Shown one piece after another: positions 35,939 through 44,387 of a stretch of DNA of 64,000 nucleotides. The DNA comes from Stenotrophomonas nitritireducens. GTDB taxonomy: Bacteria; Pseudomonadota; Gammaproteobacteria; Xanthomonadales; Xanthomonadaceae. The stretch spans positions 1,860,001-1,924,000 of the forward strand of contig NZ_CP016756.1 of the NCBI RefSeq assembly GCF_001700965.1, in the 5' to 3' direction. Position 1 is the first letter of the stretch, and each line of letters begins with the position of its first letter. The translations under genes and the position numbers were made by a program. The notes under the pieces are model-generated. The model was not told where the DNA came from, searched no databases, and saw only the letters and a program-made list of their open reading frames with translations.

Positions 35939-37465
35939 ATGGAACGCATCGAACGCCCTTTCTTCCCGGTCATCTATGTGCGCGGCTACGCGATGACCCG
36001 CGATGAGATTGTGGAAACCACCTCCACCCCGTTCATGGGTTTCGAGGCCGGCTCCACCAAGATGCGCCAGGCGCAGGACGGCAGCATCGTCAAGTTCGTG
36101 TTCGAGTCGCCGCTGGTGCGGCTGATGAAGGATTACGACTACCGCGATGTCTACGAATTCGGTGCCGAACGCCGCGACCGCATCTCGCCACGCTGCATTG
36201 TCATCCATCGCTACTACGACCCGGCTGACCCGGCCTTTGGTGACGGCAAGACCCCGTCCATCATTGATGCGGCCACCGCGCTGGGCAAGCGCATCGAGCA
36301 GCTGCGCGACAGCATCTGCGGCAACAACGCGGCCATGCGCAAGGACTTCCGCGTCTACCTGGTGGCGCACTCGATGGGCGGGCTGATCTGCCGCTGCCTG
36401 CTGCAGAACCCGGATGTGGCCAGCGCCGAGGTGCGCGCGATGGTCGACAAGGCCTTCACCTATGCCACCCCGCACAACGGCATCGAGGTGGGCGGCATCA
36501 ACCTGCCCAACCTGCTGTCGATCAACGACCTGAATAATTTCAACCGGACCAACATGGGCAAGTACCTCAAGGTGCCCAAGGACAAGGTCAATACGCTGGG
36601 CAACTCCGGCTTCCCGCCGGAGCGGCTGTTCTGCCTGATCGGCACCAACAGCCGCGACTACGCCGCCGCGCACGGGCTGTCATCCTTTGCGGTGGGCGCG
36701 CTCAGCGACGGGCTGGTGCGCATCGCCAACGCCTATGTGGAAGGTTCGCCGCGCGCGTTCGTCAACCGCAGCCACAGCGGCTATTTCGGCATCGTCAACT
36801 CCGAGGAGGGCTACCAGAACCTGGTGCGCTTCCTGTTCGGCGATACCTGCGCCACCGCGCAGCTGGACATCAATGCGCTGCCGTTCCCGCCGGAGATCGA
36901 GGCCGCCCGCAAGCGCGGCAAGAAGATCGAGTCTTCTTATTACATCGAGGCCACGGTGGCGCCGCGCGGTGCCTACACCTATGAACTCACCTCGCGCACA
37001 CAGGCCAACCAATGTGCCATCCGACGCGAGTACGGCGACATCTTCGATGCGCAGGGCAACCTATTGAAGGACAAGCGCTCGACCGTGCTGTTCTCGGTGT
37101 TCCTGGACAGCAGCAAGATCCTGGCCGGCAGCGAGATTGCGTTCTCCATCGATCTGGCAGTGAGCAACGCCGGCTATCAGGTCGATGGTGCGCTGTTCCT
37201 GAAGAACCACATCCCCGGTGAATACCTGTTCCGCAACACCCTGGTGGTCTTCGCCAAACCCGACGAGGCGGGCGGCTGGCGGCTGCGCTATGTCTGGAGT
37301 GATGACCAGTGGGCCGGCGGACCGAAGAACGAGGCCGAGCTGGCGGGCGCGCGTACCAAGGCCGTCGGCATCACCCAGCAGGCGCCGAACATCTTCGCCA
37401 TTCCACTGCAGTCGGCCAAGGGCTTCAACGCGGAACTGAAACTCTCCCTTTCCGCCTGGCGCTGA
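35939..37465 (+). CDS. Alpha/beta-hydrolase (lipase-like) of unknown substrate
   Basis: The 508-residue protein has an N-terminal hydrolase domain with FFPVIYVRGYAMT and the nucleophile elbow VAHSMGGLICRC (Ser near 148), followed by ATPHNGIEVGG, a pattern shared by PGAP1/triacylglycerol lipase-like folds. There is no signal peptide or membrane helix, so it is probably cytoplasmic. The C-terminal third (~340-505) is beta-rich and unlike the lipase core. It is a single gene, with about 240 empty bases after it. The catalytic Asp and His are not assigned. Confidence 0.72.
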   Translation: MERIERPFFPVIYVRGYAMTRDEIVETTSTPFMGFEAGSTKMRQAQDGSIVKFVFESPLVRLMKDYDYRDVYEFGAERRDRISPRCIVIHRYYDPADPAFGDGKTPSIIDAATALGKRIEQLRDSICGNNAAMRKDFRVYLVAHSMGGLICRCLLQNPDVASAEVRAMVDKAFTYATPHNGIEVGGINLPNLLSINDLNNFNRTNMGKYLKVPKDKVNTLGNSGFPPERLFCLIGTNSRDYAAAHGLSSFAVGALSDGLVRIANAYVEGSPRAFVNRSHSGYFGIVNSEEGYQNLVRFLFGDTCATAQLDINALPFPPEIEAARKRGKKIESSYYIEATVAPRGAYTYELTSRTQANQCAIRREYGDIFDAQGNLLKDKRSTVLFSVFLDSSKILAGSEIAFSIDLAVSNAGYQVDGALFLKNHIPGEYLFRNTLVVFAKPDEAGGWRLRYVWSDDQWAGGPKNEAELAGARTKAVGITQQAPNIFAIPLQSAKGFNAELKLSLSAWR

Positions 37466-37704: not shown

Positions 37705-39120
37705 TCAGGCCATCGCTGGCACCTGATCCAACTCTTCGCGGATGCTGTCGATGAACACACCATCGTTCAAGTACGCAACATTCAACCGCGTCCACGGCGA
37801 CACCTGTTCCGTATCGACATTGAAGAACGCGCCCGGGGCCAGTACCACCCCGCGTGACAACAGCCGCGAAGTCAGCAGCCGGGTGTCGTCAATGCCCCTG
37901 AATCGTGCCCACAGATACAGACTCTGCTCCGGCGCGGCGTAGACCGTTGCATCCAGCCGATGCAATACCTCCAGGCCTTCGGCGGTGGCCGCACGTACGC
38001 GGTCCTGCAGGCGGCCCACGTGGCGCAGGAAATTGCCTTCGCGGAGAATTGCCTCCAGCACACGCTCGCCGTACTCGCTGCTGCCGATGTGCAGCAGCAT
38101 CTTCAGGTCGGCCAGTTCCTCGACGTGCGAGTTCTCGCCGGCAATGAAACCGCTGCGCAGTGCGGCGGACACCGACTTGGAGAAGCTGCCCACGTACAAG
38201 GTGTTCCTGAACTGCGACAGCGAGGACAGCCGGAACGCCGAGTTGGGCTTGAAATCGGCCATGGCGTCGTTCTCGACGATCAGCACATTGTGCGCGGCCG
38301 CCAACTCCAGCAGGCGCTTGCCAACCTCGGGGGATACATCGGTGCCGGTGGGGTTGTGCGCGGTGGACTGCATGAAGAAAACGCGCGCCTTGCTGGTCTG
38401 CAATGCGGCTTCGAACTCGGCCAGGTCCGGGCCGTCCACACGCCGCGTGATCGCGATCGACTTGGCGCCCTGCAGCTGCAGTTTGCCGAACAACGGGTAG
38501 TAGCCGGGTTGTTCGACCAGCACCGTGTCACCCGGCGCGACGTAGCGTCGGATAATCAGGTCCAACGCATGGTTGGCGCCAAAGGTGGTCACCAGCTGGC
38601 GCGGACCCAGCTCCATGCCGTGCATCGCCATGCGCCGGATCAGCTGCTGGCGCAACGGCAGGTAGCCATAGCGGTTGCCGTAGCGGAACAGGCTGCCGCT
38701 GCCACTGCGTGCCACCTGCCGGTGGAAGCGGTCCAGGCGCATGTACGTCAACCAGTCAACCGGCGGAAAACCCTCGGCCAGATGCGAGCGTCCCGGTTCG
38801 CGGATGGCCTGCTGCCGCATCAGCCACAACGTGTCGATCACGCGGCTGTAGCCGACCGGCTCTTCATCGATGTCGCGTTCCGGCGGCGCCTCCACACCAC
38901 GCACAAAAAAACCTTTGCCGTGTTGTGCTTCCACCAGTGCTCGCTCGCCAAGCAGATCGAATGCCGAGATCACCGTGTTCTTGGAATAGCCATTCAATCG
39001 CGCGTACTCGCGCAACGAAGGCAGCTTGTCGCCGGGCTTCAACACGCCGGCTAATATCTGGCGGCCAATATCCATGGCAACTTTTTCCGCCAATGAAATC
39101 TTACGTGGTTCAGAGCGCAT
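37705..39120 (-). CDS. MocR-type GntR regulator with PLP aminotransferase-like domain
   Basis: The 471-residue protein has an N-terminal GntR winged helix (LAEKVAMDIGRQILAGVLKP, LPSLREYARLNGYSKNTVIS) joined to a fold-type I aminotransferase domain. That domain keeps NPTGTDVSPE, ENDAMADF and the PLP Lys in YVGSFSKSVSAALRSGFI. MocR proteins use PLP or its adducts as effectors and often control a divergent operon. Here the divergent genes are the HMG-CoA reductase-like and lyase-like pair, starting 210 bases away. The regulator keeps its PLP lysine although those two enzymes appear inactive. Confidence 0.9.
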   Translation of the reverse strand: MRSEPRKISLAEKVAMDIGRQILAGVLKPGDKLPSLREYARLNGYSKNTVISAFDLLGERALVEAQHGKGFFVRGVEAPPERDIDEEPVGYSRVIDTLWLMRQQAIREPGRSHLAEGFPPVDWLTYMRLDRFHRQVARSGSGSLFRYGNRYGYLPLRQQLIRRMAMHGMELGPRQLVTTFGANHALDLIIRRYVAPGDTVLVEQPGYYPLFGKLQLQGAKSIAITRRVDGPDLAEFEAALQTSKARVFFMQSTAHNPTGTDVSPEVGKRLLELAAAHNVLIVENDAMADFKPNSAFRLSSLSQFRNTLYVGSFSKSVSAALRSGFIAGENSHVEELADLKMLLHIGSSEYGERVLEAILREGNFLRHVGRLQDRVRAATAEGLEVLHRLDATVYAAPEQSLYLWARFRGIDDTRLLTSRLLSRGVVLAPGAFFNVDTEQVSPWTRLNVAYLNDGVFIDSIREELDQVPAMA

Positions 39121-39330
39121 AAAAATCCATACAAAATTTTTCGGGCGCTAACTGTATCTACGCGTCCGCGCACGCTGTAAAGAGCATAAATAGACATTTA
39201 GAGATGAATTGGCGGATCCACATTCGGTCATGCGCTGTCCGAAAAAACTGTATCTGCCGCACGTGTCTGGCGGAGCACATTACTGCTTGCACTTTGCGCA
39301 ATCCTGCTCGACACGAACGCAATCGAAAGG
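39121..39330. promoter_or_regulatory. Divergent control region, MocR / HMG-CoA reductase-like operon
   Basis: This 210-base region is the only space for both promoters. Its first 90 bases are markedly A/T-rich (ATAAAAATCCATACAAAATT), in contrast with the GC-rich genes around it. GCATGCAA-type short repeats and several GCATG words occur near the right end and into the start of the gene. No palindrome was found that I would call a MocR operator. Confidence 0.45.
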
Positions 39331-40578
39331 ATGCATGTGAACGCAACTTCCGCACATCCGTTGCATGCAAGGCATGCAACGTCAGCACCGCTTGCATCGA
39401 CTGCGACGCTCGCACCTGCATGTGCGAATGGCACACATGCGGAACACCCTGGGTCGACCCATCCACCCATGGTTTCTCCTGCGCTGGTCGCCAACCAAGA
39501 CATGCATGCGAACGCGCATACGTTCATGGAAGACCTGCTGATCAATGGCGCCGAGCTGCGCATCCCGGTGCCAGCAGATGTGGAGTGGAGTGCCGGGGTC
39601 CGCCGCATCGCGGAGCTTGCACGCCAGGCAGGCGGCTTCATCACCTTTCGCGCAAGCCCGCTGATCCGCTCGCGCATCCAGTTCACCGGCATCGACGATG
39701 TCTACAATGCGCGCCTGCAGGTGCTGCGTCTGCGCAATGAGCTGATCGGCCTGGCCAACACGATGAACCCGATGCTGGTGGCGCTGGGCGGCGGCTGCAA
39801 GGACATCGCCGTGCATGCGCGCCAGTCCCGCCAACTGGGTGCGTGTCTTGAGGTTGATCTGATCGTCGAGGTGCCGGACCGTTCCGAGGGCCGCGTCCTC
39901 GACATGCTGATCGCGAGGATGGCGCCCCTGATCGAACAACTGACCCATGGCACACGCAACAGGACGTCGATAAGCGACATCGCCGACCGCCAGCTGTTGT
40001 GCGCGCAGGTGGCGCTGGACGGGCACTGCTTCGCACTGGCCCCACAACAGGCCGATGCCATGGCCGCCCGCATTGTCCACCTGCACCGCCACATCTGCAC
40101 CACGCCTGGCCGCATGGCCCTGCACAACGCCGGCATCGTGGCTGTGGTCAACTCCATGCTGGCCACCAGTACACCCGCGGGGGCGCTCCACAACAGTGTG
40201 TGGACCGCGCAGAGCGATCCCGATGCGCCGTTGTGCATCTGGTATCGCGATCATCGTGGCCGCCTGTGCGGCAGGATCGCGCTGCCCCTGATCACCGCCC
40301 TGGTGGAGCACGACATGTCGGCAACTACCGGTGTATCCGGCATCCTCGAGGCCAAGCACGCCATTGCGGCCATCGGTCTGGCGCACAGCCTTGCCAGCCT
40401 GCACGCCGATGCCGGCACGGCCACGCATAACCAGGCAGGCCTGCACGCACACGATCTGGCCTTGCTGGCCGGCGCACGTGGCGATGAAATCACCACGCTG
40501 GCGCGGTCGCTGCACAACGCCGGGCAGATCCGCTGCGAATATGCCATCGACCTGCTCGATGTGCTGCGCAGGCAATGA
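39331..40578 (+). CDS. HMG-CoA reductase class II-like protein, catalytic residues replaced (probable pseudoenzyme)
   Basis: The 415-residue product follows class II (degradative) HMG-CoA reductase throughout: ELARQAGGFITFRASPLIRS, ARLQVLRLRNELIGLAN, LGGGCKDI (153-159), LEVDLIVEVP, APLIEQLTHGT, SDIADRQLLCAQV and the C-terminal LALLAGARGDEITTLARSL. The active-site motifs are altered: the HNKGI lysine motif reads HNAGI (Ala267), the GND aspartate motif reads TSTPAG (~278-284), the GHM histidine motif reads NQAG (367-370) and the cofactor motif DAMGAN reads DRSEGR (183-188). The first 60 residues are His/Ala/Thr-rich. The start could be ATG 39331, GTG 39337 or ATG 39469. It overlaps the lyase-like gene by 4 bases. 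Codon use is host-like. Function is unknown; a ligand-binding or scaffold role is possible. Confidence 0.78.
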   Translation: MHVNATSAHPLHARHATSAPLASTATLAPACANGTHAEHPGSTHPPMVSPALVANQDMHANAHTFMEDLLINGAELRIPVPADVEWSAGVRRIAELARQAGGFITFRASPLIRSRIQFTGIDDVYNARLQVLRLRNELIGLANTMNPMLVALGGGCKDIAVHARQSRQLGACLEVDLIVEVPDRSEGRVLDMLIARMAPLIEQLTHGTRNRTSISDIADRQLLCAQVALDGHCFALAPQQADAMAARIVHLHRHICTTPGRMALHNAGIVAVVNSMLATSTPAGALHNSVWTAQSDPDAPLCIWYRDHRGRLCGRIALPLITALVEHDMSATTGVSGILEAKHAIAAIGLAHSLASLHADAGTATHNQAGLHAHDLALLAGARGDEITTLARSLHNAGQIRCEYAIDLLDVLRRQ

Positions 40579-41537
40579 TGGCCGGGGGCAACGAGGACGA
40601 AGATCGTGTGCGCATCATCGAGGTCGGTGCATGCAGCGGCTTGCAGCACCAGACCAAGCTGCTGCCCACGGCGGTGCGCATCAACCTGATCGAACTGCTG
40701 GAATCGGCCGGCATCACGGAGATGGAAGTCGGTGCGTTCAGCACATCGCGCCTGCTCCCGCAGATGGCCGATAGCGCTGCGCTGTGCACGCAGCTGGGCG
40801 TCGCACCCATCGACCGCATCCGTTCGGTGAGAGTGGCCGACATCAAGGCACTGGAATTGGCCATTGCTGCCGGTTGTCGCGACATCACCATCAGCGCGGC
40901 CGCGTCCAACGCCTGGTGCCGCGCCAACCTCAACTGCAGCAGCAGCGAGAGCCTGCGCCGTGCCGACCAGATCGCCGAGCACGCACTGGCGCTTGGCATC
41001 CAGGTACGCGCCACGCTTTTCACCGTCATCCACTGCCCGCTCAGCGGTGCGGTGGCACCGGCAGAGGTCGCCCGCGCCGTGGCGGCGCTCCACACCATGG
41101 GCTGCCGTGAGGTCAGCCTGTGCGATACCACCGGCTCCGGCACGCCCGCATCGGTAGGCAAACTGCTGCGCGCATGCGCGGTGGAGGTGCCGCTGCATTG
41201 GCTGGCCGCACACTTCCGTGACACCTACGGGTTTGGCATCGCCAACACGATCGAAGCGCTGGAACATGGCGTGCGCGCCTTTGATGGCGCCATTTCAGGG
41301 CTTGGTGGCGACCGCCATGCCCCGGGCGCCGCTGGCAGCCTGGCTACCGAGGACCTGGTGCATGCGTTCGACGCGTTGGGGATCGGCTGTCATGTCGATC
41401 TGGATGGGCTGCTGCTGGCAGCCGATTACATCGATTGTGTGCTTGAGCGCAGCACCGAATCACGGGTAGGCCGCGCCCTGCGCGCCAGCCGACGCCAATC
41501 CAGGCAGCATGCCGCCGGTTGCGGCTGGGCGAGCTGA
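40575..41537 (+). CDS. HMG-CoA lyase-like TIM-barrel protein, catalytic residues replaced (probable pseudoenzyme)
   Basis: The 320-residue product aligns with HMG-CoA lyase (HMGL-like barrel) over its length: VRIIEVGACSGLQ, TEMEVGAFSTSRLLPQMAD, ANLNCSSSESL, HTMGCREVSLCDTTGSGTP and GLGGDRHAPGAAGSLATEDL. The residues that define the enzyme are lost: the RD of VGPRDGLQ is CS (20-21), the HxH metal pair is HFR (213-215), the catalytic Cys of GLGGC is Asp246, and the metal-binding Asn of SGNVATED is Ser255. Its ATG overlaps the stop of the reductase-like gene (ATGA). An intrinsic terminator follows. The pair therefore looks like a preserved, expressed operon of two inactive homologues of enzymes that act on the same metabolite. 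Confidence 0.8.
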   Translation: MMAGGNEDEDRVRIIEVGACSGLQHQTKLLPTAVRINLIELLESAGITEMEVGAFSTSRLLPQMADSAALCTQLGVAPIDRIRSVRVADIKALELAIAAGCRDITISAAASNAWCRANLNCSSSESLRRADQIAEHALALGIQVRATLFTVIHCPLSGAVAPAEVARAVAALHTMGCREVSLCDTTGSGTPASVGKLLRACAVEVPLHWLAAHFRDTYGFGIANTIEALEHGVRAFDGAISGLGGDRHAPGAAGSLATEDLVHAFDALGIGCHVDLDGLLLAADYIDCVLERSTESRVGRALRASRRQSRQHAAGCGWAS

Positions 41538-41620
41538 GCCGCAACGTAGGCGGCATGGTCAGCGCTGCATGCGCTGCTGGCCGTCGTCAGCAACAGCGGC
41601 GGGCGGACTGCGGACAAGCA

Positions 41621-41650
41621 AAAGCCCCGTCAGTGCGGGGCTTTGGCGAC
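41621..41650 (+). terminator. Terminator of the HMG-CoA reductase/lyase-like operon
   Basis: AAAGCCCCG / CGGGGCTTT (41621-41629, 41636-41644) with a TCAGTG loop. The T-run is short (CTTT), so strength is uncertain. A second small hairpin, ACCCGC/GCGGGT, follows at 41649-41667. Confidence 0.65.
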
Positions 41651-41673
41651 CCGCGCAGTGAGCGGGTTGAATC

Positions 41674-41695
41674 TGGCGCCCCGGAGGGATTCAAA
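41674..41695 (-). other. tRNA-3'-end-like fragment, candidate left boundary of the island
   Basis: Read on the minus strand this is TTTGAATCCCTCCGGGGCGC followed by CA, resembling the 3' half of a T-arm plus acceptor strand plus CCA. It is about one base short of a regular tRNA end. No tRNA body lies on either side. Host-like sequence ends here and A/T-rich sequence begins. It may be an attachment-site scar. The next 550 bases to 42248 contain no convincing gene. Confidence 0.35.
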
Positions 41696-42248
41696 TAAAT
41701 TCTACATCCATCTGATTATCATGAATTTTCAAAAATTAGAACAACCATAATGCCCCCGTGCATGCCCCCAATCGATCTCGTGACAAGGGTTGCAATCCGC
41801 AACGCATAATTGTCGCTGAACTGATCATAAGCAACGGGCATCCTTGGATCCAGCTAGCCGGCCAATACGCTGCACAGCGCCGATTTGCGCGCCTCAGGCA
41901 GCCTGCTTAGCCGACATTGATCACAATGTGTAAGAACGTCGTAAGGCGAAGACTTCACTTTTCCCACGAGCCTGTTAAACCTCAGCTAGGTAGTCGAGCT
42001 GATCGCCTCCTGGTTGGTCCGCTTGGGCACTCCCTTCCACGCCTTTCGGGGGATGATGCGAGGCCTCCAAGCCCTCGATCCTCGCCGACGTCCAACGCTT
42101 CACTGCGGGGGGGCGGAAGCGCCGAAATGTACACTCAACGAACTAGCTCCAGTTCGCGCTGACTCGATCTTCACAGAGATGAAGGAATCATCTGCGCTCC
42201 TCTAGCGGGACCGGAGGATGTCTTGAAAAAGTCAAAGGGAGATTTTCC

Positions 42249-42500
42249 ATGGGGTCAGTCGCAATGTACCTGGAAGGGCCAGGTCAGCAACGCCGCTCGG
42301 TGAGCATTCTGTCACGCCAAAACAAGCGATTGTTTACCGGCAGTGTCGACAGCATTCGCATCAAGAATCGCTCGATCTCAGAGATCGAAGTGAAGACGTT
42401 GGTAGACGAGAATGGAAACATTGCCGTTCAGTCTGACTACGACGGATTCCGCTTCAAATACCCGGACTCTGAGATCCACTGGAGCCTGGTAATCGGCTGA
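42249..42500 (+). CDS. Small protein of unknown family (paralogue of the 44388 gene)
   Basis: The 83-residue product reads MYLEGPGQQRRSVSILS... and ends GFRFKYPDSEIHWSLVIG. It shares the plan of the 80-residue protein at 44388: a YLEGPG/FLQGPG start, a middle Ile/Ser-rich part, DENGNIAVQSDYDGFRFKY versus DTEGRVAIQVDQEGFLYRY, and a WSLVI/WALVV end. The family is unknown to me. The ATG at 42249 follows AAAGGGAG; an internal ATG at 42264 is possible. It has its own strong terminator. It has no signal peptide or membrane helix. Confidence 0.72.
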   Translation: MGSVAMYLEGPGQQRRSVSILSRQNKRLFTGSVDSIRIKNRSISEIEVKTLVDENGNIAVQSDYDGFRFKYPDSEIHWSLVIG

Positions 42501-42503
42501 ACA

Positions 42504-42529
42504 AAAGCCCGGCTCCGGCCGGGCTTTTT
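42504..42529 (+). terminator. Intrinsic terminator of the small-protein gene
   Basis: AAAGCCCGGC / GCCGGGCTTT (10-base perfect stem, TCCG loop) is followed by TTTTTC-type sequence. It begins 4 bases after the stop codon. Confidence 0.93.
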
Positions 42530-42615
42530 CGTGATGAGAACAGCAAGTCAGGACACATCAACTTCACCCTGCATAGTGGAGCATAAGCACTCATAAGCCA
42601 GCTTTTGGAAGCTGT

Positions 42616-42720
42616 ATGAAGACCGCGCCGCCGCATTCGCGCCGACCCTCGCTATGGTTATCTGCCTTTTGCATCGGGCTTGGTGTGACGCTGGCATCCG
42701 TCATACAAGCTGCCCTGTAA
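42616..42720 (+). CDS. Possible 34-residue single-span peptide
   Basis: A short ORF reads MKTAPPHSRRPSLWLSAFCI then GLGVTLASVIQAAL, a basic N-terminus and one hydrophobic helix. GGAAG lies 5 bases upstream of the ATG. It is the only coding candidate in the 330 bases between the small-protein gene and the cho pseudogene. Nothing else supports it; it could be chance. Confidence 0.25.
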   Translation: MKTAPPHSRRPSLWLSAFCIGLGVTLASVIQAAL

Positions 42721-42833
42721 GCCCGCGTCAGCCCACTCGAAGCCGTCCGCCAAAGCCCTCTCCTTGCGCTCGCTCGAACACCTGAACAACCCGTCGCTGC
42801 AGCAATAAGAGTTGGACGCTACGCTTGTTTCCA

Positions 42834-43634
42834 ATGGAATCGTTATCCGATCTACGCGCGCTCACTCGCGACCTCCCCCATGCCCCTGGCACCTACACTT
42901 TCCATGGCCACGGCGGAGTACCCCTCTATATAGGCAAGAGCATCCATATCCGCACTCGGGTCCTCGACCACCTGAGATCCGCGAATGATGCGCGACTGAA
43001 TAGTCCGACTCTCAATTTCTCGTTCATTCGCACCGCTGGCGACATCGGTGCCAAGTTGCTTGAAGCGCAGCAAATCAAACACCACCAGCCGCTGTTCAAC
43101 CATCGCATGAGGCGCAACCGGAAGCTGTGCACACTGACTTTCGGGCATGGTGAGCTCACCATCGCTAACGTCCATGAAGCAGGTGGTGCACCCAGCTATG
43201 GCCTGTTCGCCAACAGGCATGCCGCTATCGCGGGCTTGCGAGCTATCGCCGACACTCACCTGCTTTGCTACAGCCGGCTTGGAATCGAGAAGCTGCGGGT
43301 TGGACGCTCCTGCTTTCGCCACTCGATTCATCGATGCCTTGGGGTTTGTTGTGGAAAAGAGACTGATGACACTCATCGACATCGACTTCTATCAGCCCTT
43401 GTGAAACGCCAAGAACAAGCATGGCCCTAACCAGGTGCAGTAGGGATCATTGAACGCTCCAGCGACTTGGAGCAGATTCACGTGGTCCGCAATTGGTCCT
43501 ATCTGGGAAGCGCGCCCGACAAGGCCGCTGCGAAGAAACTGTCAAAACCAGCCCCAGGCTTTGATCACGATGGCTACAAAATATTGGTAAGGCCACTCCT
43601 ATCCAAGACCGTGAACCTCATTGAGCTCCCTTAG
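42834..43634 (+). pseudogene. cho: Excinuclease Cho (UvrC homologue), interrupted by an in-frame stop
   Basis: Cho makes the 3' incision in nucleotide-excision repair at bulky lesions. The first 199 codons give the GIY-YIG nuclease domain (PGTYTFHG, PLYIGKSIHIRTRVLDHL, IGAKLLEAQQIKHHQPLFNH) and RSCFRHSIHRCLGVCCGKE, as in E. coli Cho. A TAA at 43428 stops the frame after QEQAWP. Reading on in the same frame, the normal Cho C-terminus continues (IHVVRNWSYLGSAP, GFDHDGYKILVRPLLS) to a TAG at 43632. One nonsense change therefore separates this from an intact gene. The truncated product keeps the nuclease domain. No SOS box was seen upstream. Confidence 0.85.
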
Positions 43635-43826
43635 CCATTGGGTTGCTGTGCCTTTGGCCAGGCATGGACATGGCATTTCGCTCCCGAACGAGCAAGAGCA
43701 GCAAAGCCTTCAGCAAAAAAAGCCAGGGCATTCGATGGCGACAGACCGGCACAAAAAACTCCCACAAGAACGGTGGGGATGTGCCAATCTGGACGACAGA
43801 AATGCTGTCATCATCAGGATAAACGA

Positions 43827-44258
43827 ATGCAATATCACGCGATTGCTTATGCGAGCACCGCAGTCGCAGGCCTGACAACAGAAGATGTTGATCGACTGTT
43901 GATCGACGCTCGCGCTAGGAACCAGATCCAAGGTGTGACCGGAGTTTTACTTTACGATGGAAGCCGATTCTTTCAGTATCTGGAAGGGCCTGACTACGGT
44001 GTGAGCAAGATCTACTCACGCATACAGGAATCCTCAAAGCATGCCCGGATCGAGGAACTCTTCAACGGTCCTGTTGAAGCAACCTATTTCCGTCAGTGGT
44101 ACATGGCCTGCAGCGAAACCGACGGCAGCATCCTGCAAAAATTCTGCACGAAAGAGTGGCGTCGCGAGGCTCCGTATCTCGGTGAAGACCACAATGGGGA
44201 GCCACCAGAAGTGCTTCAAGATTTGATCCAGTTCTGGAACGAGATTTGCTCAGACTGA
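43827..44258 (+). CDS. BLUF-domain blue-light sensor protein
   Basis: The 143-residue product is a single BLUF domain binding FAD: the conserved Tyr in MQYHAIAYAS (Tyr8), the Asn in ARNQIQGVTGVLLYDG, the Gln in RFFQYLEGP and the Trp in RQWYMA are all present. BLUF domains signal through a light-driven hydrogen-bond change around this Tyr/Gln pair. There is no attached EAL, GGDEF or other output domain, so it should act on a partner protein. The ATG at 43827 has AGGA 7 bases upstream. The partner may be one of the two small paralogous proteins flanking it (42249 and 44388), but that is conjecture. Confidence 0.92.
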   Translation: MQYHAIAYASTAVAGLTTEDVDRLLIDARARNQIQGVTGVLLYDGSRFFQYLEGPDYGVSKIYSRIQESSKHARIEELFNGPVEATYFRQWYMACSETDGSILQKFCTKEWRREAPYLGEDHNGEPPEVLQDLIQFWNEICSD

Positions 44259-44387
44259 TCTTCCACGAAGCTGGGGGCGAGCTTCAAGCTAAGAATCCAC
44301 CAACGCCTCGACTTCGCCTTCGAGGGGGCGAGGCATTGGCAAACAGCCATCTGCAACCAATTTGTCCAGCCTCTACTGGAAATAGCC

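Follow-up and report, generated by a model that had tools for sequence, protein, structure and literature searches.

In a 64,000-nucleotide stretch of the Stenotrophomonas nitritireducens genome (contig NZ_CP016756.1, positions 1,860,001 to 1,924,000; hereafter the window), the gene of a MocR-type regulator is divergent from two genes whose products resemble a class II 3-hydroxy-3-methylglutaryl coenzyme A (HMG-CoA) reductase and an HMG-CoA lyase (Table 1). A first-pass annotation, made from the sequence alone, had described the latter two as overlapping genes for paired pseudoenzymes, and the coordinates of the open reading frames (ORFs) agree with this layout. The reductase-like gene probably starts at GTG 39337, giving 413 codons, since the relative P0002 (G, L, C and P numbers are our own handles) opens with MNATSAHP at that point. 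The same annotation held that both genes were open, host-like and ended in a terminator. The open frames stand, and the GC content at third codon positions was 0.77 and 0.79 for the reductase-like and lyase-like genes (in that order), near the 0.80 of the MocR gene. The terminator does not, as a scan of 39000-41800 returned no terminator-like sites; a GC hairpin seen by eye near 41620-41650 has only three T after it.

Table 1. Features of the MocR, reductase-like and lyase-like locus (positions in the window)
Feature	Position	Strand	Evidence and remarks
MocR-type regulator	37705..39120	-	Pfam PF00392 (GntR DNA-binding) and PF00155 (aminotransferase-like); lysine retained
Extra AACTGTATCT half-site near MocR start	39150..39159	+	Intergenic alignment; present as ACTGTATCT in G000, G113, G107 and G090
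Predicted MocR operator, direct repeat CTGT-N8-ACTGTAYCT	39235..39255	+	Alignment of MocR loci
Class II HMG-CoA reductase-like pseudoenzyme	39331..40578	+	415 codons; E83, K267, D283, H381 and DAMGAN lost
HMG-CoA lyase-like pseudoenzyme	40575..41537	+	320 codons; C41, S42, H233, R235, D266, H268, S275 (human numbering)

The alignment of the reductase-like protein to the Pseudomonas mevalonii reductase (phmmer, E 2.3e-43) set HNAGI against HNKGI, the P of TSTPAG on the D of GND, the Q of NQAG on the H of GHM and DRSEGR on DAMGAN, with small gaps near the E83, D283 and H381 regions. The motif losses that had been read from the sequence thus fall on the catalytic motifs; the residue numbers, here and for the human lyase, are those that we, like the earlier annotation, take to be catalytic. 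All four catalytic residues (E83, K267, D283 and H381) are missing. The protein resembles class II HMG-CoA reductases (TIGR00532/PF00368) in its 25-33% identity to active-type members and in their top rank in structure searches (see below), and differs from them in its catalytic residues, in the loss of DAMGAN and ENVIG and in a TIGR00532 score of 82 bits, far under the curated cut-off of 259.95. A Pfam scan of the protein found no family at E 0.001.

These losses are those of a family. The protein search for relatives returned 16 matches among 8000 scored candidates; three further genomes of the window's clade were added and near copies (P0001 and P0003) removed, giving 18 rows, window included, which were set against 17 intact-type reductases chosen from among the search matches. 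No row kept E83 (0 of 17, one gap), D283 or H381 (0 of 18 each), and two of the 18 kept K267. DAMGAN was lost across the family, its M being replaced by S in 17 of the 18 rows. The columns S85, N271, N365 and R261, which we take to be HMG-binding in class II reductases, were kept in 1/17, 0/18, 0/18 and 12/18 rows, respectively (window included), and N365 was changed to S in 17/18. The suggestion that the pair may sense an HMG-CoA-like ligand is not supported; these columns are mostly lost besides the catalytic four. Among the 103 columns invariant in the intact reductases, the eight active-site columns were kept at a mean of 0.10 and the other 95 at 0.36 (P = 0.017). The best-conserved segments were the WYRDH strand (0.76) and the helix AAIGLAQSLA (0.79).

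The lyase-like protein was aligned to the human lyase (phmmer, E 2.3e-64), and the motif changes proposed earlier were found at the expected places: VGACSGLQ for VGPRDGLQ, HFR for HCH, GLGGD for GLGGC and AGS for SGN. It differs from HMG-CoA lyases by R41C, D42S, H235R, C266D and N275S, and H233, which can be added to the earlier description, is the sole survivor of the six catalytic positions. In other respects it resembles these DRE-TIM metallolyases (NF004283/PF00682). It passes NF004283, the NCBIfam HMG-CoA lyase model, with 260.6 bits (cut-off 246), and its structure model (predicted local distance difference test [pLDDT] score, 90.3) is a triosephosphate isomerase (TIM) barrel lying within 1.2 Å of the human lyase 2cw6, with a template modeling (TM) score of 0.97 (target-normalized).

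Three sets of lyase sequences were compared: 30 rows of the window type (copies P0017 and P0030 and the partial P0058 removed), 8 rows of the type found in G004 and G025 (their copies P0044 and P0051 removed) and 37 intact-type lyases. The six catalytic columns were invariant in the 37 intact-type rows, a chosen subset of the matches in which several database lyases were picked after the alignment had shown their motifs. Position 42 of the window type was never D (R in 23 rows, S in 3, T in 2, K in 1, and E in 1), and position 266 was never C (D in 24, S in 3, N in 2, and E in 1). N275 was kept in 7 of the 30 rows (S in 21), R41 in 17, H235 in 26, and H233 in 29. Most relatives carry the same new residues, with frequencies of 0.77 for Arg42, 0.80 for Asp266, 0.97 for His268 (29/30) and 0.80 for a Cys at column 172 (G166 numbering). 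Arg235 was confined to rows without a basic residue at position 42 (3/30 rows; Fisher test, P = 0.005), although two of these three rows are sisters and three more rows without a basic residue at 42 also lack Arg235. The G004/G025 type kept R41 and D42 in 7/8 rows each and H233, H235 and N275 in 8/8 each, and its C266 was changed to N (7/8) or S (1/8). A complete catalytic site was found in none of the 18 reductase-like and none of the 30 window-type lyase-like rows, window included. Alignment to solved structures, with losses shared by relatives, confirms that the window encodes two adjacent proteins without their catalytic residues and rules out a sequence error or an accident of a single genome.

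The regulator has the GntR and aminotransferase-like domains of its family. As had been annotated, it keeps its lysine, which aligned with that of 1wst (SFSKSVSAALR against TFSKILAPGFR) and which we take to be the Schiff-base lysine that binds pyridoxal 5'-phosphate. An alignment of eight MocR loci, namely four from the window's clade and those of G004, G025, G065 and G166, showed the predicted operator without a mismatch in each. In the 4.54-Mb genome, the site next to this MocR gene was the only one with at most one mismatch, and the reversed control pattern gave 0 matches. When eight further genomes were searched, an exact site was found at each MocR locus, for nine exact sites in total, the ninth being in G334. 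Seven one-mismatch sites lay away from MocR loci in these genomes; they are probably chance matches, because the reversed control matched 27 times. The Burkholderia arboris and Burkholderia cenocepacia loci carried the repeat with one mismatch. Five other distant loci needed 2 to 4 mismatches, so the motif is not established there. Since the predicted operator is exact at MocR loci and unique in this genome, the regulator is probably dedicated to the adjoining operon. The extra half-site near the MocR start is a possible autoregulatory site.

Genome G334 (L120, C84:451000-470500) encodes a MocR relative, 60-61% identical to the G166 MocR, with two exact operators. One lies between this gene and an ORF judged by eye to be similar to an acyl-CoA synthetase and the other upstream of ORFs leading to an HMG-CoA lyase gene about 5 kb further on, which suggests a wider regulon feeding HMG-CoA breakdown.

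Direct repeats are described as MocR operators in a regulon survey (PMC5320631), in whose main text mevalonate and HMG-CoA do not occur. The window regulator is like the MocR factors (GabR, PdxR, TauR, and others) in its domains, lysine and predicted direct-repeat operator and differs from them in its predicted target, a mevalonate-degradation operon or its dead descendant.

The ratio of nonsynonymous to synonymous substitution rates (omega) was estimated by maximum likelihood (GY+F3X4) in the four genomes of the window's clade. The reductase-like and lyase-like genes gave 0.27 and 0.19, respectively, and MocR gave 0.019; on the three available genomes, the estimate was 0.015 for a neighboring lipase-like gene and 0.043 for ComM. 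The other, motif-intact HMG-CoA lyase of the same four genomes (identity, 93-97%) had an omega of 0.037. An omega of 1 was rejected for both genes of the pair, the log likelihoods with omega free and fixed at 1 being -5115.5 and -5226.5 for the reductase-like gene and -3206.4 and -3341.1 for the lyase-like gene. Both frames are open in all four genomes, at synonymous distances of about 0.6 to 1.6 (NG86). When the observed differences were placed at random, the reductase-like gene acquired a mean of 4.9 to 8.6 stops, with 0, 0, 0, and 8 of 1,000 runs free of stops for the four genome pairs, and the lyase-like gene acquired a mean of 3.3 to 4.2 stops, with 11 to 40 stop-free runs of 1,000. The omega values and simulated stops rule out neutral pseudogenes as the sole account, and the proposal that selection keeps both genes holds: omega is well below 1 and not near it, as simple neutral decay would have it.

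Among 91 genomes of the genus, 5 had a match to the reductase-like protein and 7 a MocR orthologue (at least 71% identity), this genome included. The order MocR, reductase-like, lyase-like also occurs in G113, G107, G090 and G004, and it is preceded by ComM and the lipase-like gene in the window, G107, G090 and G004 (where ComM is partly aligned). Neither ComM nor the lipase-like gene was found in the stretches examined for G113 (L013 and L046), though MocR and the pair are there, so the neighborhood of that genome differs. Among the clade genomes, protein identity is 92-98% for MocR, the lipase-like protein and ComM and 39-66% for the reductase-like protein. We prefer vertical inheritance of the pair to horizontal replacement between relatives, because G113 is the partner of genome G000 both by MocR identity and in the two trees; the placement of the G004 reductase-like protein is unsure, as it sits on a long branch.

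Of the neighboring genes, the one for the lipase-like protein (window 35939-37465) is strongly conserved, has a weak PGAP1-like match and adjoins MocR in G107, G090, G004, G025 and G065. The downstream flank (window 41540-44260) varies: the window has a gene for a BLUF photosensor (43638-44258), G107 has one for a sigma-70-type factor resembling the extracytoplasmic function group, and G113 has UbiA. Two ORFs downstream of the pair match PHROGs families of unknown function, and a search of 41000-43000 found no tRNA.

Mevalonate degradation of the P. mevalonii type is encoded by the operon mvaAB. The window pair shares with it the order of reductase then lyase and homology along most of the length. 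The closest intact counterpart was found in G166 (L103), whose genus is a different one in the same family; there, a MocR orthologue (66% identity) is divergent from an intact reductase, which keeps EEPS, HNKG, GND, GHM and DAMGAN, and a lyase that keeps all six catalytic columns. The divergent regulator and the operator pattern are as in the window. The loci differ in that the G166 enzymes are intact and are followed by a TctA transporter, an SMP-30/gluconolactonase-like protein and an outer-membrane-type protein (PF13557), none of which was detected at the loci of the pseudoenzyme pair. The earlier annotation would have been called into question by homologues with a full active site in the same gene order. 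Those of G166 show the probable origin of the pair and do not make the window proteins active.

In a quick SH-aLRT tree of the lyases, the window type (30 rows; support, 98) was sister to the G004/G025 type (8 rows; support, 100), with a support of 99 for this grouping. Both types fell within a clade (support, 100) together with G166, P0048, P0049, P0052, P0056 and P0057, apart from 31 other lyases, among them this genome's own second lyase. This tree and an identity of 39% rule out derivation of the lyase-like gene from that second lyase.

A plasmid collection contained 37 records with a similar reductase, of which 10 were listed. In all seven of those inspected (L141-L147, from Ruegeria, Tistrella, Rhizobium, Allorhizobium, Sulfitobacter, and two Burkholderia), a divergent MocR gene, its product 34-50% identical to that of the window, lies beside an intact-motif reductase; TRAP or TctA transporters occur in five and a lyase is nearby in two. 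The seven records and G166 suggest a MocR-type regulator of mevalonate degradation. Because the G166 set is intact and the MocR-reductase pairing recurs in the seven records, the ancestor of the pair was likely a mevalonate-degradation operon, with the substrate deduced from the enzymes. K267A and N365S in the reductase-like protein and a changed C266 in the lyase-like protein are already common to the window and G004, so the side-by-side loss may stem from one event, the loss of the pathway. The paired loss of residues that the first-pass annotation called unusual is real, and the word itself should be softened. As the G004/G025 type changes mainly C266 while the window type changes more columns, the intact, partly changed and fully changed stages that survive in living genomes form a stepwise series.

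Our favored reading, to which we give a probability of about 0.6, is that the window carries a catalytically dead descendant of a MocR-controlled mevalonate-degradation operon (mvaA then mvaB), retained for a noncatalytic role. The origin and retention of the pair appear well founded on these comparisons; on a binding role for the pair we are evenly divided. In one Stenotrophomonas lineage, both enzymes lost their catalytic residues while the frames, gene order, MocR and operator stayed. Upon loss of the pathway, the two folds would have been taken over for noncatalytic binding or scaffolding, and the pair would be made under MocR control when the old signal of the regulator, or a related one, is present. 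The lyase-like protein is the more conserved element. Its rewired TIM-barrel pocket, in which Asp replaces Cys266 and Arg mostly occupies metal-ligand position 42 (or 235 in the window's lineage), may hold an acyl-CoA, a dicarboxylate or another anionic ligand without a metal. The reductase-like protein evolves faster than its partner and is perhaps a subunit for binding or scaffolding.

Several observations weigh against this reading. Both reading frames are constrained, but weakly, since the omega values of the pair are 5 to 14 times as high as those of MocR or of the intact lyase paralogue. The reductase-like gene has a shortened end in G004 and is a remnant of about 100 codons in G025. At the G065 locus (L081, C1:426000-443000), MocR, ComM and the lipase-like gene are present and neither gene of the pair was found; as MocR and its exact operator outlive the pair there, the regulator may be retained for another reason. 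Most replaced pocket columns of the lyase-like family are below its median conservation of 0.90 (percentiles 15 to 34; His268, 71). In the reductase-like family, the E83 and H381 columns hold scattered residues (percentiles 11 and 9). The structure model of the reductase-like protein has a pLDDT of 76.5 (residues 1-59 below 50); class II reductases top both structure searches with it, but at a root mean square deviation of 11-17 Å and a TM score of about 0.4 or less over the chain, so its domain placement is unreliable and no pocket claims were drawn from it. Finally, neither MocR nor a lyase was found within about 1.5 kb at 14 other reductase loci, 7 of which belong to other genera of the family. 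The MocR pairing is therefore not general to class II reductases, and these 14 enzymes may serve biosynthesis.

The weak constraint, the eroded reductase-like genes of G004 and G025 and the absence of the pair from G065 would also fit a slow relic: a useless pair on its way out, with omega below 1 arising only because selection acts against toxic or misfolded product for as long as expression lasts. So would the missing transporter and lactonase-like genes at the pair's loci and the distribution in the genus, 84 of the 91 genus genomes having no MocR orthologue at the identity threshold and 86 no reductase-like match. We regard this account as unlikely, because random substitution would rarely leave both frames open in four genomes at such synonymous distances, omega of 1 is rejected and new residues recur at lyase positions 42, 266, 268 and 275.

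That recurrence, by which lost pocket residues are replaced mainly by the same new ones, is also what neofunctionalized enzymes would show. The lyase-like protein would be the likeliest of these, catalyzing another reaction via Arg42, Asp266, His268, His233 and, mostly, His235; its fold is intact, and the G004/G025 type keeps most catalytic columns, with C266 changed to N or S. This possibility seems to us rather doubtful. The reductase-like partner has lost cofactor and substrate residues together, and, since D42, H235 and N275 are all changed, the known metal site is not available in the window lyase-like protein. Among the matches listed (the best 120 of 251 in one list), no member stood out as having a known other function. 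It is very improbable that the losses are sequence errors or that the proteins work with catalytic residues from other parts of the chain: the lyase-like protein does pass the curated lyase model, but the alignments span the catalytic motifs directly, other genomes and database proteins show changes at these positions too, and an intact lyase paralogue lies elsewhere in the genome.

Within the favored reading of a dead operon kept for a noncatalytic role, a more specific proposal can be made, which we put forward as speculative. The two-step catabolic module may have become a noncatalytic two-protein device on the old MocR switch, in which the former lyase would bind a mevalonate- or acyl-CoA-derived ligand, Arg replacing the lost metal, and together with the former reductase would modulate MocR or another target.

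To our knowledge, bacterial pseudoenzymes are usually described singly. The window pair is like them in its kept homology, lost catalytic residues and kept frames and differs in that two enzymes acting in succession in a single pathway share one operon, whose regulator and predicted operator are retained. Among the literature matches listed, none dealt with HMG-CoA pseudoenzymes in pairs or with mevalonate genes under a MocR regulator, which is weak evidence of absence. The lyase-like protein is also a warning for annotation, as it passes a curated HMG-CoA lyase model without the catalytic residues. The analysis also yields, as a by-product, a proposed operator and regulator family for the degradation of mevalonate in bacteria. 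The two enzymes, neighbors in their pathway, have lost their chemistry together while the regulator and operator stayed nearly frozen, and the surviving stages make the conversion of a metabolic operon into a nonmetabolic one testable step by step. The origin of the pair is fairly clear, and its job is probably new rather than the old chemistry.

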